64,000 nt of DNA from Muricomes intestini (GTDB lineage: Bacteria > Bacillota > Clostridia > Lachnospirales > Lachnospiraceae). The notes under the pieces are model-generated. The model was not told the origin of the DNA. It did no database searches and saw only the letters and a list, made by a program, of their open reading frames with translations. The first letter of the stretch is position 1. The number at the start of each line of letters is the position of its first letter. Positions 3,263-14,659 of the stretch are shown here, one piece after another. The stretch spans positions 248,001 through 312,000 of the forward strand of contig NZ_SLZZ01000001.1 in the NCBI RefSeq assembly GCF_004346165.1. The letters run 5' to 3'. Both the position numbers and the translations under genes were made by a program.

Positions 3263-3272
3263 AAATGTCAAT

Positions 3273-3317
3273 AAAAATGCTGTGCAATGACCTGCAGGTC
3301 ATGGTACAGTATTTTTA
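3273..3317 (+). terminator. Hairpin terminator after serA
   Basis: Eleven bases after the serA stop there is a long stem whose apex is the perfect 16-bp palindrome ATGACCTGCAGGTCAT (3287-3302). The flanks also pair: AAAAATGCTGT on the left with ACAGTATTTTT on the right, ending in a T-rich run. This should end the ilvB-serC-serA transcript before the next promoter. Confidence 0.75.
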
Positions 3318-3357
3318 TGTAAAATGAAACTTTATTCCAGTTCAGTGCGTTAATGTA

Positions 3358-3386
3358 TTGACAAAGAGTGTATAACTGTATACAAT
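3358..3386 (+). promoter_or_regulatory. Sigma-A type promoter of the citrate synthase-like / gntR / icd cluster
   Basis: Perfect -35 TTGACA (3358-3363), 17-nt spacer, -10 TACAAT (3381-3386). The start ATG of the next gene is at 3455, giving a leader of about 60 nt with AGGAGGT at 3439-3445. A 26-bp palindrome covers the spacer and the -10. Confidence 0.8.
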
Positions 3387-3393
3387 TATACAC
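3368..3393 (+). promoter_or_regulatory. 26-bp palindromic operator over the -10, candidate GntR-family site
   Basis: GTGTATAA (3368-3375) and TTATACAC (3386-3393) are exact reverse complements, and the centre TGTATACA (3377-3384) is itself palindromic on the same axis (3380/3381). Only one base pair of 13 (3376/3385) does not match. The site covers the spacer and -10 of the promoter, which suits repression. FCD-type GntR regulators are known to use TGTATACA-like sites, and such a regulator is the second gene downstream, so autoregulation is the likely reading (inference). Confidence 0.7.
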
Positions 3394-3454: not shown

Positions 3455-4843
3455 ATGGAAGAAAGAAAAGTATTTTTGAACACGCATACAAATTTATTGG
3501 AATTGGAAGAACATATGTACCCGCTCGTAGATGTGGATTCTCCCAATACATTTCAAAATTTGTTCCGGTATGATCAAATACCTAAAATTGCTTTTAACGA
3601 TAGAATCGTTCCTCATCATATGCCGGACGAAATATGGCTCACAGATACAACCTTCCGTGATGGACAGCAGTCACGGGCCCCATATACAACAGAACAGATT
3701 GTAACAATTTATGATTACCTGCATAAATTAGGCGGCCCGAATGGAAAAATCAAGCAAAGTGAGTTCTTCCTGTACAGCAAGAAGGACAGAGACGCAGTAT
3801 ATAAATGTCTGGAGAAGGGGTATAAGTTTCCGGAAGTTACAAGCTGGATACGGGCCAGCAAAAAGGACTTCGAACTGGTGAAGAATATCGGACTGAAAGA
3901 AACAGGTATTCTTGTAAGTTGTTCGGACTACCATATTTTCTATAAACTTAAGATGACTAGAAAAGAGGCACTGGAGCATTATCTGTCTGTGGTACGTGAG
4001 TGTATGGAGACGGGGATCAGGCCAAGGTGCCATCTGGAGGATATTACAAGATCTGATATATACGGATTTGTGATTCCTTTCTGCGTTGAGCTGATGAAGC
4101 TTAGGGAAGAGTACCAGATTCCGGTGAAAGTCCGTGTCTGTGATACTCTTGGGTATGGAGTGAATTACCCGGGAGCAGTAATCCCCAGGTCAATCCCGGG
4201 TATTATTTACGGCCTTATGACACACGCAGGTGTTCCAAGTGAGCTGATAGAGTTCCATGGCCACAATGATTTCTATAAAGCGGTAAATAATTCTACTACA
4301 GCCTGGCTTTACGGTTCCTCAGGGGTAAACTGTTCTTTGTTCGGGATCGGAGAACGCACCGGCAATACGCCCCTGGAGGCTATGGTATTTGAGTACGCAC
4401 AGCTCCGCGGTACTCTGGACGGGATGGACACCACCGTTATCACAGAGCTTGTAGAATATTATGAAAAAGAATTAGGCTACCGGGCTCCCTCAAGAACTCC
4501 CTTTGTGGGAAAAAATTTTAACGTAACAAGAGCGGGAATTCACGCAGACGGTATGCTGAAAAATGAAGAAATTTATAATATATTTGACACCGATAAGTTT
4601 TTAAACCGTCCGGCTCTGGTTTCCGTATCCAATACATCGGGAACTGCAGGTATTGCTTATTGGATTAATACATATTATAAACTTCCACCTAAAAGGCAGG
4701 TTGACAAAAGCTCTGTGCTTGTACAGGAAATTAAAAAATGGGTAGATAAAGAATATGAAGATGGGCGTATTACAGTTTTGACAGATGATGAATTAGTTGC
4801 TAAAATAAACAATGTATGCGGCAACCTGCACATTGAACTCTAA
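3455..4843 (+). CDS. Probable Re-citrate synthase (isopropylmalate/homocitrate synthase family)
   Basis: HMG-CoA-lyase-like TIM-barrel protein of 462 residues. The metal/substrate loop is DTTFRDGQQSR, and the metal-binding histidine pair is EFHGHNDFYKAVNN; GIGERTGNTPLEAMVFEYA is the usual downstream motif. It is longer than a bare catalytic domain and lacks an obvious full LeuA regulatory dimer domain. Clostridial Re-citrate synthases belong to this family and are encoded next to icd; here icd is two genes downstream, so condensation of acetyl-CoA and oxaloacetate is the best guess. The alternative is a 2-isopropylmalate or homocitrate synthase. Start set at 3455 by AGGAGGT at 3439-3445; an upstream in-frame codon at 3368 lies within the promoter. 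Confidence 0.72.
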   Translation: MEERKVFLNTHTNLLELEEHMYPLVDVDSPNTFQNLFRYDQIPKIAFNDRIVPHHMPDEIWLTDTTFRDGQQSRAPYTTEQIVTIYDYLHKLGGPNGKIKQSEFFLYSKKDRDAVYKCLEKGYKFPEVTSWIRASKKDFELVKNIGLKETGILVSCSDYHIFYKLKMTRKEALEHYLSVVRECMETGIRPRCHLEDITRSDIYGFVIPFCVELMKLREEYQIPVKVRVCDTLGYGVNYPGAVIPRSIPGIIYGLMTHAGVPSELIEFHGHNDFYKAVNNSTTAWLYGSSGVNCSLFGIGERTGNTPLEAMVFEYAQLRGTLDGMDTTVITELVEYYEKELGYRAPSRTPFVGKNFNVTRAGIHADGMLKNEEIYNIFDTDKFLNRPALVSVSNTSGTAGIAYWINTYYKLPPKRQVDKSSVLVQEIKKWVDKEYEDGRITVLTDDELVAKINNVCGNLHIEL

Positions 4844-4864: not shown

Positions 4865-5524
4865 ATGGAAGAATATCAGGATCATTCTCTGAGTGGACGT
4901 GTTTTTCAAAAGATCCGGGAAGACATTCTTAAAGGCAAGTATGAGGAGCACGACGAATTAAGAGAAAACACAATTGGAAAGGAGCTTGGAGTAAGCCGGA
5001 CGCCCGTGCGTGAAGCACTTAGACAGCTTGAGCTGGAGGGTTTAGTTTCTATTATTCCAAATAAAGGTGCATATGTAACAGGAATCTCAGGGAAAGATGT
5101 GAGAGATATTTATGTTATCCGCTCCATGCTGGAAGGGCTTTGTGCCAGATGGGCAACTGAGAATATAACGGCGGCACAACTGGATGAGCTGGATGAAATT
5201 ATGCTGCTCTCCGAATTTCACATTAAAAAAGAAGGAAACATCAATCCGGAACAGGTAACAGAGCTGGACAGCAAATTTCATAACGTTTTGTATGAGGCAT
5301 CTGACAGCAGGATACTTTCTCATGTGCTGACAGATTTTCACGGATACGTTAAGAGGGCCCGCAAGTTTTCTGTAGTGTCGGAGGAGAGGGCAAGAAAGTC
5401 CATACGGGAACACAGGCAGATATTGCGTGCAATCAAAGAGAAAGATGCCGATTTAGCAGAACAGCTGGCAAATGAACATATGCTGCATGTAATGCAGAAC
5501 CTGAAAAAACAGGGATATGAGTAA
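4865..5524 (+). CDS. GntR-family transcriptional regulator, FCD type
   Basis: 219-residue DNA-binding regulator. The N-terminal winged helix-turn-helix (about 10-75) carries ELGVSRTPVREALRQLELEGLV, a textbook GntR recognition helix. The C-terminal all-helical FCD domain (about 85-210) has LDSKFHNVLYEAS and EHRQILRAIKEKDAD, whose Asp/His residues normally bind a metal that contacts a carboxylate ligand. It sits between the citrate synthase-like gene (21-nt gap) and icd (44-nt gap), so it probably senses a citrate-cycle metabolite and binds the palindrome at 3368-3393. Ligand and targets are inferred. Confidence 0.9.
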   Translation: MEEYQDHSLSGRVFQKIREDILKGKYEEHDELRENTIGKELGVSRTPVREALRQLELEGLVSIIPNKGAYVTGISGKDVRDIYVIRSMLEGLCARWATENITAAQLDELDEIMLLSEFHIKKEGNINPEQVTELDSKFHNVLYEASDSRILSHVLTDFHGYVKRARKFSVVSEERARKSIREHRQILRAIKEKDADLAEQLANEHMLHVMQNLKKQGYE

Positions 5525-5568: not shown

Positions 5569-6765
5569 ATGGAAAAGATTAAGATGAGTACCCCTATTGT
5601 TGAGATGGACGGAGATGAGATGACGAGAATACTCTGGAAGATGATTAAAGATAATCTTCTGGAGCCGTACATTGAGCTGAATACAAAGTATTATGACCTG
5701 GGTCTGGAAAAGAGAAATGAGACAAATGATCAGATTACAGTTGACTCGGCCAATGCTACTAAGAAATATGGGGTAGCCGTCAAATGTGCGACCATTACAC
5801 CAAATGCAGCGCGCATGAAGGAATATGACCTGAAAGAAATGTGGAAAAGTCCAAATGGGACGATCCGTGCAATTCTGGATGGGACTGTTTTCCGGGCCCC
5901 TATTGTTGTGAAGGGCATTGAGCCCTGCGTAAAAAACTGGAAGCAGCCAATCACTATTGCAAGACATGCATATGGGGATGTTTACAAAGGCTCTGAGATG
6001 AAAATACCGGGACCGGGGAAAGTGGAGCTTGTTTATACAGCAGAAGACGGATTGCAGACAAAAGAGCTGGTGCATAATTTTACCGGAGAGGGGATTGTAC
6101 AGGGAATGCATAACCTCAACTGGTCAATTCAAAGTTTTGCGAGAAGCTGCTTTAATTATGCTCTGGATACAAAGCAGGATATCTGGTTTGCCACAAAGGA
6201 TACAATTTCCAAAAAGTATGACCACACATTTAAAGACATCTTCCAGGATATTTATGATACAGAATACGATGAAAAGTTTAAGGCTGCTGGGATTGAATAT
6301 TTCTACACTCTGATTGATGATGCGGTAGCCAGAGTTATGAAGTCAGAGGGCGGATACATCTGGGCGTGCAAAAATTATGACGGGGATGTAATGAGTGATA
6401 TGGTATCATCCGCATTTGGCTCACTTGCCATGATGACATCTGTGCTTGTATCTCCGGAAGGTTATTATGAATATGAGGCAGCTCACGGAACTGTGCAGAG
6501 ACATTATTATAAGCATCTGAAAGGAGAAGAAACGTCCACTAACTCTGTGGCAACCATTTTTGCATGGACAGGAGCACTCAGAAAACGCGGCGAACTGGAC
6601 AAAAATAAAGAATTGATGGAATTTGCAGACAGGCTGGAAAAAGCGACAATTGATACAATTGAAAATGGAAGCATGACAAAAGACCTTGCTTTGATTACAA
6701 CCATAGCAAATCCCACTGTGCTAAATAGCGAGGACTTCATAAAGGCAATTGCCGATCGGCTGTAG
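5569..6765 (+). CDS. icd: Isocitrate dehydrogenase (NADP+), homodimeric eukaryote-like type
   Basis: Oxidative decarboxylation of isocitrate to 2-oxoglutarate with NADP. At 398 residues it fits the type II (mitochondrial-like) IDH rather than E. coli Icd. Visible motifs are [11 protein letters not shown] at the N-terminus, the substrate loop [21 protein letters not shown] (about 92-112), [24 protein letters not shown] with the metal aspartates, and [30 protein letters not shown]. It is the third gene of the citrate synthase-like cluster. No aconitase gene is in this window, so that step must be encoded elsewhere. Confidence 0.95.
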
Positions 6766-13900: not shown

Positions 13901-14659
13901 ATGGATCAGAAGAATCTACAGGCCAATATGATTTCCCTGTTTCAGGAAACAGGGAAATATGCTCAAAAATTCCATAAAAAAACTTATGAATCGGATATGG
14001 AAACTCTCAAAGAAAGATACAGCAATCTTCTTGATGAAATAAAGGGCATCATTGAGGAGTCTGACGATGATATGGAGGAAATTGCAGCCTATGTTCCTGA
14101 CTATGTGGCAGAACAGCTTTCAAATATATCCTCAAAAAGAAAGAAAGATATCGCATGTCTGGACAATAATATGAATATGGTATCTTACTATGTTCCTCTA
14201 ATGGGAGAGATTATCAGTGTAAAAACCAAACCTTTTACAGAGAAGATGGTGGAGATTTGGAACAAAAATATGCCGGAGTATAAGATTGGCCATTCCACCC
14301 GGGAACACATCCAGGGAGGATTTAAAAAGGGACTGTTCTGTTATATTACAACTGCAGTCTGCAGAAGCCTTAACAAGACTGATGATTGTTATGAACTGAC
14401 ACTTCTTCGTGACTACAGGGATCATTATCTTATGAATTCTGAAAATGGCGAGGAACTTGTAAAGGAATACTACAACATTGCACCAACAATTGTAAAGAGA
14501 ATAGACACAGGAGACAATTCGGCTGAAGTATATGCCAGAATCTGGCAGGACTACTTAAATCCCTGTATTCATTTGATTGAAGAAGAAAAGAAAGAAGAAT
14601 GCAGAGAGTTATACAGTGATATGGTTCGGAAACTAGAAAAGAAATACTTATATTCTTGA
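13901..14659 (+). CDS. Uncharacterised protein with a C-terminal CFI-box-like domain
   Basis: 252-residue protein of unknown function, no signal peptide or membrane segment. The N-terminal 130 residues are helical and charged. Residues about 146-205 read CYITTAVCRSLNKTDDCYEL, then LLRDYRDHYLMNSENGEELVKEYY and NIAPTIVKRID, which match the CFI-box pattern C-[FY]-I-x-T-A ... LR-x-[FY]-RD-x-YL ... G-x-x-LV-x-x-YY-x-x-[SA]-P. That motif is widespread as a C-terminal tail, but its function is not established. Two short cysteines (CYITTAVC) could be a metal or redox site. It follows yebC by 11 nt and has a strong terminator after it. Confidence 0.75.
   Translation: MDQKNLQANMISLFQETGKYAQKFHKKTYESDMETLKERYSNLLDEIKGIIEESDDDMEEIAAYVPDYVAEQLSNISSKRKKDIACLDNNMNMVSYYVPLMGEIISVKTKPFTEKMVEIWNKNMPEYKIGHSTREHIQGGFKKGLFCYITTAVCRSLNKTDDCYELTLLRDYRDHYLMNSENGEELVKEYYNIAPTIVKRIDTGDNSAEVYARIWQDYLNPCIHLIEEEKKEECRELYSDMVRKLEKKYLYS

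Follow-up and report, generated by a model that had tools for sequence, protein, structure and literature searches.

A palindrome in the citrate gene promoter of the gut bacterium Muricomes intestini very probably binds the GntR regulator encoded next but one downstream

To our knowledge, little is known about how strict gut anaerobes regulate the half-cycle supplying 2-oxoglutarate for glutamate. In the DNA of Muricomes intestini analysed here (a stretch of 64,000 nucleotides, hereafter the window), a palindrome is embedded in the promoter of a cluster of citrate synthase-like, gntR and isocitrate dehydrogenase (icd) genes. Does the gntR product, encoded two genes downstream, bind this palindrome and repress its own operon, as was originally predicted from the window alone? 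The comparisons described below indicate that this regulator very probably binds the palindrome; the switch appears to be common to many Clostridia and, in some relatives, to control aspartate-making genes as well.

The palindrome, its promoter and the operon

The palindrome (3368-3393) reads GTGTATAACTGTA to the left and TACAATTATACAC to the right of its axis, with 12 of 13 pairs matching, inside a TTGACA-17-TACAAT promoter; sequence and coordinates agreed with the original description (Table 1). The two arms, 3368-3380 and 3381-3393, form a gapless inverted repeat with 92 % complementarity, and the promoter hexamers, 17 nt apart, match the consensus at 11 of 12 bases. In the 64-kb window, 12 or more of 13 pairs match in two 26-mers, this palindrome and one at 13932; no such 26-mer was found in 25 simulated windows of the same length (Markov-1). 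No second copy with up to 3 mismatches occurs in the 3.7 Mb of its own genome. It scored 37.3 with the matrix trained on relatives (see below), and the next non-overlapping place in the window scored -5.7. The second strong palindrome of the window, at 13932-13957, has the sequence TTTCCCTGTTTCAGGAAACAGGGAAA and also pairs at 12 of 13 positions.

Table 1. Features of the promoter region and the operon (positions in the window)
Feature	Position	Strand	Remarks
Abutting 24-nt inverted repeat, probable terminator of the preceding serC-serA unit	3271..3318	.	88 % complementary
-35 hexamer TTGACA	3358..3363	+	6/6 at the same offset in 68/69 relatives' loci, 5/6 in one
26-bp palindrome, predicted GntR operator	3368..3393	.	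axis 3380/3381
Outer half-site TGTAT, left arm, in the -35/-10 spacer	3369..3373	+	at least 4/5 bases in 130/141 sites
Core TGTATACA, near-invariant	3377..3384	.	site positions 11, 13-16 and 19 identical in 141/141 distinct upstream regions scoring at least 10
-10 hexamer TACAAT	3381..3386	+	overlaps the right palindrome half; identical in 68/69 relatives' loci
Outer half-site ATACA, right arm	3388..3392	-	at least 4/5 bases in 136/141 sites
Citrate synthase-like gene, HMGL-like family, likely Re-citrate synthase	3455..4843	+	PF00682, 113.5 bits
FCD-type GntR regulator gene, predicted operator owner	4865..5524	+	PF00392 and PF07729; AlphaFold2 model, pLDDT 88.9
NADP-dependent isocitrate dehydrogenase gene (icd)	5569..6765	+	NF006156, 683.8 bits (cut-off 335)

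Domain and family matches bore out the reading of the cluster as citrate synthase-like gene, gntR and icd. The product of the first gene matched models of isopropylmalate, homocitrate and citramalate synthases, all under their curated cut-offs; it is likely a Re-citrate synthase, which fits the neighbouring icd and, in other families, aconitase. The segment 3262-3325, between serA and the promoter, was predicted to fold as RNA with -26.4 kcal/mol (z -7.06). Since the hairpin at 3271-3318 probably ends the serC-serA unit, the promoter at 3358 should open a new transcription unit.

Conservation of the site and its tie to gntR

Footprinting of the same gap in relatives agreed with the original prediction: the palindrome is kept upstream of the orthologues, also outside the family, and is tied to this gntR. 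Of 518 loci with gntR relatives, the best 80 were used. Sites were first searched for with the window sequence alone, 16 loci with less than 60 bp upstream of the citrate synthase gene being omitted. The scoring matrix was then based on 69 of the 80 loci (seven had no citrate synthase in the stretch and four were too short upstream), the sites of these same 69 having first been found with the window sequence alone. Among these best 80 loci, the site preceded the citrate synthase-like gene in all 69 relatives with enough upstream DNA, the lowest score belonging to L007, with a decayed left arm. TTGACA stood 10 nt ahead of the palindrome with 6/6 bases in 68 of the 69 and with 5/6 in the remaining one.

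On a larger scale, 141 of 153 distinct upstream regions scored at least 10, and a -35 hexamer with at least 5/6 bases was present at offset -10 in 126. The 141 sites, among which identical ones were counted once, include the matrix-training loci and one ortholog-less genome (G016), and some of their genomes are the same records as loci of the 80-locus set. The 12 regions scoring below 10 comprised seven ortholog-less genomes, L245 (site one gene upstream), L179 (weak site ahead of icd, the first gene there) and three loci with weaker sites (L178, L181 and L188). Conservation was high across the -35 hexamer, both arms and the core, and at most 0.6 bit elsewhere; the left arm, though situated in the spacer, was nearly as conserved as the hexamers. 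Both outer half-sites were kept at 4/5 bases or better in 125 of the 141 sites. The two outermost pairs covaried, being complementary in 70 of 141 sites against 43.6 expected and in 102 against 90.7, with the reservation that related species are not independent; neither count was reached in any of 1000 shuffles. Most inner pairs were too invariant to judge covariation. FadR-type operators have a GT...AC core as their consensus, and its short-spacing form, GTATAC, was found in 140 of the 141 sites, the one departure being at T.

Some loci deserve separate mention. L084 looked site-less because the locus is cut off; the same genome (G104) carries the site. L081 has no site before gntR, and the same contig (G024:C76) has one before the citrate synthase gene further upstream. 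At G051:C304:15096-15146 (L112), two sites 27 bp apart lie ahead of citrate synthase.

Presence of the site followed presence of the gntR ortholog. Among 397 family genomes, a site with up to 3 mismatches was found in 127 of 174 with the ortholog versus 5 of 223 without it, counts that are inflated by related species. In a 120-genome family set the corresponding figures were 36 of 51 and 1 of 69, the single exception having a different core; the 51 carriers had orthologs with at least 49 % identity, and other matches listed were at or below 39 %. Because the site usually sits within the gntR operon, such co-occurrence is partly expected and further tests of the tie were needed. Citrate synthase without the gntR ortholog occurred in 8 of the 120 genomes, and the site was absent in 7 of these. 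Four of the seven are weaker controls, since their citrate synthase is more distant (60-63 % identity). G016 has a weaker site despite lacking the ortholog; this genome is 87 % complete. The reverse situation, gntR without citrate synthase, occurred in 9 of the 120 genomes, and in eight of them (G022, G026, G036, G041, G060, G086, G102 and G116) the site, with 1-6 mismatches, directly preceded gntR; none was found ahead of gntR in the ninth, G044. Where citrate synthase is not beside gntR, the site likewise usually stands ahead of gntR (L031, L037, L053 and L054). Two loci of the order serA-gntR-icd (L030 and L041) had no site, and citrate synthase was also absent from the stretch. With serA directly ahead of gntR-icd, the regulator may in these two cases have joined a serine unit or be decaying.

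The exceptions on both sides were inspected. No site with up to 3 mismatches was found in 47 of the 174 gntR-positive genomes. Fifteen such genomes belong to the 120-genome set: two are cut by contig ends (G018 and G057), 11 carry more degenerate versions (4-6 mismatches), and none was seen before gntR in G044 and G112. In G112 citrate synthase lies elsewhere, with a site one gene upstream. Five of the 397 genomes were site-positive and gntR-negative. In G460 a GntR with 37 % identity and citrate synthase adjoin the site, in G615 the citrate synthase is cut by the contig end, and in G492 a site with a TTTACA core precedes isocitrate dehydrogenase. No explanation was found for the sites of G612 and G009; the latter, with a different core and next to a large protein that has carbohydrate-binding and Ig-like domains, was rejected as an operator and taken as a chance match.

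Beyond the family, the gntR ortholog (E <= 1e-40) was detected in 55 of 245 Clostridia genomes sampled. Forty of the 55 matches were studied, three of them from the same family; G000 (the M. intestini genome) and G022 were already covered and 13 were left out. The core [TA]TGTATACAA was present upstream of gntR in 33 of the 40 loci versus 0.73 expected from shuffled sequence. As to the seven core-less loci, the operons of L200, L201, L202 and L214 apparently extend past the stretch analysed and L210 is cut by a contig end; L235 and L236, with 38-39 % identical proteins and other neighbours, have no such technical excuse. The operon took the forms synthase-gntR, synthase-aconitase-gntR, synthase-aconitase-isocitrate dehydrogenase-gntR and aconitase-gntR, and, in a further form, a Si-type citrate synthase (PF00285, tested on L204) came after gntR. 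A regulator shared by two unrelated citrate synthases would seem to go with the reaction rather than with the gene.

Probable further targets and the proposed switch

Sites outside the operon were classified as well. Of 100 classified sites (44 from the 120-genome set and 56 among the matches listed in a wider genome search), 74 precede citrate synthase or gntR, 17 aspartate aminotransferase and 9 other genes; one more listed site, ahead of citrate synthase (G145:C13), was not counted. Among the matches listed, aspartate aminotransferase thus accounts for 17 of the 26 classified non-operon sites, all 17 in ortholog-bearing genomes. The nine remaining sites precede genes of an Amt-PII fusion, a 5-oxoprolinase subunit, a DUF4914 protein, an NMT1-like protein, the G009 protein, a pyruvate formate-lyase-like protein, asparagine synthase and an AMP-binding protein, and a glyS-like gene (identified by eye). 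Thirteen of the aminotransferases belong to PF12897 and four to PF00155; Pfam was run on L154, L155, L159 and L253, and all 17 matched one of two of these in tblastn. In 14 of the 17 aminotransferase genes a TATAAT-like hexamer (5/6 bases) starts 12-16 nt ahead of the site, a control frequency being 4.1 % of 1870 positions in the same flanks. The aminotransferase site would therefore begin about where transcription starts. Its geometry differs from that at the citrate promoter, yet it would be equally blocking if the protein were bound there. The regulon in some relatives is thus likely wider than the operon, including aspartate aminotransferase and, in single genomes, Amt-PII, 5-oxoprolinase and asparagine synthase.

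The M. intestini genome itself yielded no convincing second target, and its aconitase-family gene (PF00330, L312) is without a site. The TTGTATACAA core occurs at 13 places in this genome against 3 for the reversed control. A wider regulon in this genome was looked for and not found; one of the 13 places had a score that would fit an extended site. It belongs to a pair of TTGTATACAA cores, spaced 81 bp, near a ybaK-like gene (by eye) at G000:C1:321685-321775 (L143/L144); the one at 321766, with a good left arm and a score of 18.5, was the sole candidate second target seen in this genome. At G000:C2:33759-34171 (L145/L146), another GntR-like gene, divergent to an acylphosphatase-like gene with a proC-like gene behind it (both by eye), is ringed by TTGTATACAA and TGTATACA words and is perhaps a second GntR autoregulatory unit with the same core.

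Taken together, the comparisons demonstrated a conserved dyad in fixed register over the -35 and -10 hexamers whose presence and position track this gntR ortholog. The proposal that the gntR product represses its own operon is thereby supported beyond what one sequence allows. In our estimation the probability is roughly 80 % that the palindrome serves the FCD-GntR protein as operator, this protein being an autoregulatory repressor of the branch from oxaloacetate to 2-oxoglutarate. A GntR dimer on TGTATACA would cover the spacer and the -10 hexamer and keep RNA polymerase off, so that the citrate synthase-gntR-icd operon would repress itself. The site can also be read as TGTAT/ATACA half-sites set in 8-bp steps around the central TGTATACA, and further dimers might occupy these flanking half-sites; by analogy with NanR, of which three dimers bind cooperatively to repeated half-sites, the operator may take up more than one dimer. 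The affinity for DNA would be altered by a small carboxylate bound through a metal ion in the FCD pocket. In relatives with aspartate aminotransferase sites, the same protein might balance oxaloacetate between the 2-oxoglutarate/glutamate and the aspartate routes.

Other explanations of the palindrome were weighed against this one. Conservation of nothing more than a strong promoter, with symmetry as a by-product, might be suspected since the right half is partly the -10 hexamer, and an RNA hairpin or terminator since the minus-strand reading is terminator-like and folds at -11.9 kcal/mol (z -3.1). Neither accounts for a left arm in the spacer that is nearly as conserved as the hexamers, for arms that covary, or for the recurrence of the site in a different promoter geometry at aspartate aminotransferase genes; moreover, transcripts from the TTGACA/TACAAT promoter should start after the palindrome, and the terminator-like stem has just 3 G-C pairs. 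The hairpin was rejected on the conserved, covarying arms and the weak stem, and this whole group of explanations is hardly credible. The site might instead be owned by a paralogous FCD-GntR, the adjacent gntR being a bystander: paralogues with at most 39 % identity are common, TTGTATACAA-like cores adjoin at least one other GntR gene and TTGTATACAA itself is in excess in the M. intestini genome. Against this, the extended site is rare without the ortholog (1/69 versus 36/51, the former with a different core) and stays with this gntR where citrate synthase is absent. Paralogue ownership was rejected on this co-occurrence and is very unlikely.

That the protein binds the site as an activator or dual regulator is improbable, if a little less so. 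The precedent is CitO of Enterococcus faecalis, an FCD-GntR protein which activates the cit operons and binds DNA better with citrate. The regions protected by CitO, -41 to -65 and -51 to -74, lie upstream of the promoter according to the excerpts of PMC4746285, whereas the palindrome covers the spacer and the -10 hexamer. At the aspartate aminotransferase genes, too, the site begins about where transcription should start, and a promoter this close to consensus should work without an activator. The activator reading was disfavoured by the position of the site.

Returning to the repressor operator, a fuller picture can be drawn tentatively, at somewhat short of even odds. The regulator would sense a tricarboxylic or 2-oxo acid through the pocket metal and bind as cooperating dimers to an operator of four half-sites. 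Throughout Clostridia it would decide how much oxaloacetate goes to aspartate aminotransferase and how much into the citrate-to-2-oxoglutarate branch, with its Re- or Si-citrate synthase, aconitase and isocitrate dehydrogenase; in single lineages, nitrogen genes (Amt-PII, asparagine synthase, 5-oxoprolinase) would have come under its control as well. One gene and one 26-bp target emerge from the evidence, a function is proposed for an FCD-GntR family of 55 of the 245 sampled Clostridia genomes, and the citrate branch is predicted to be linked to aspartate synthesis.

The regulator and comparison with known systems

The gntR product is a member of the FCD-GntR group by PF00392 (69.6 bits, cut-off 27), PF07729 (100.7 bits, cut-off 24.3) and fold match. 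In the AlphaFold2 model, built from 49 sequences with a pLDDT of 88.9, the first helix starts at residue 9. The nearest solved relatives are PmiR (7xp0) and 7u5q and, by fold, also Atu1419; PmiR was the best solved sequence match with 29 % identity and a fold TM of 0.81/0.88. Residues R45, R86, H139, H183 and H205 were invariant in 156 of 156 distinct sequences, and position 135 was D in 148 and N in 8. The predicted metal site D135/H139/H183/H205 aligns, at the level of residues, with N137, H141, H192 and H214 of Atu1419, and R45 and R86 align with its guanine-reading and citrate-contacting residues. In view of these pocket residues, the metal-dependent citrate binding of CitO and the 2-methylisocitrate reported as the ligand sensed by PmiR, a carboxylate ligand is likely. 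Citrate, isocitrate and 2-oxoglutarate are the most plausible candidates, followed by another carboxylate; as far as citrate is concerned, the pocket is just compatible with it.

In Bacillus, citrate genes (citrate synthase/aconitase) are controlled by CcpC-type LysR regulators. The likeness to the present system lies in the control of these genes in a Gram-positive bacterium and the difference in the regulator family. Two ortholog-less relatives (L241 and L243, genomes G079 and G004) have citrate synthase divergent from a LysR-type gene (PF00126/PF03466), and LysR and GntR solutions may therefore replace each other.

In the open-access literature searched, no description was found of this regulator or its site, of their reach in Clostridia or of the aspartate aminotransferase link. 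PMC6469976 was the sole open-access paper found with both 'Re-citrate synthase' and 'GntR', and in its excerpt GntR concerns allantoinase genes. The kind of system, an FCD-GntR operator in the regulator's own promoter, is familiar; the particular regulator is undescribed in the open-access papers searched.

Known members of the family are compared here from excerpts of the papers cited. CitO shares the FCD-GntR type, the citrate genes and the binding of citrate, which requires a divalent metal (PMC4746285); it differs in being an activator bound upstream of -35 and in serving citrate breakdown, not synthesis, whereas the site described here lies over the spacer and the -10 hexamer. NanR of Escherichia coli is a GntR repressor with repeated TATA-containing half-sites in a row, to which three dimers bind cooperatively (PMC8012715). 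Its repeats read GGTATA and its N-terminus is extended by 32 residues; in the present system the site is symmetric and the model is without such an extension. PmiR of Pseudomonas aeruginosa, likened by the protein alone, has a close fold despite 29 % identity, and the 2-methylisocitrate it senses, according to the title of Cui et al. 2022 (cited in PMC13086498), is near isocitrate in shape. Atu1419 of Agrobacterium fabrum, a VanR-type protein, is an FCD repressor of ATGTATACAT sites placed over -10 boxes or the -10/-35 gap; its Arg45 reads the guanine of ATGTATACAT, the residue aligned with R86 holds citrate, and N137, H141, H192 and H214 bind zinc (PMC7797058). It differs in its hydroxycinnamate region, its methylenetetrahydrofolate effector and its 10-bp site, for which no outer half-sites are mentioned in the excerpt of that paper. 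With 26-27 % identity and a place among the top folds, it shares with the regulator described here the FCD-GntR repressor type (predicted in our case), the promoter palindrome, Arg45 and the Asn/His3 metal site.
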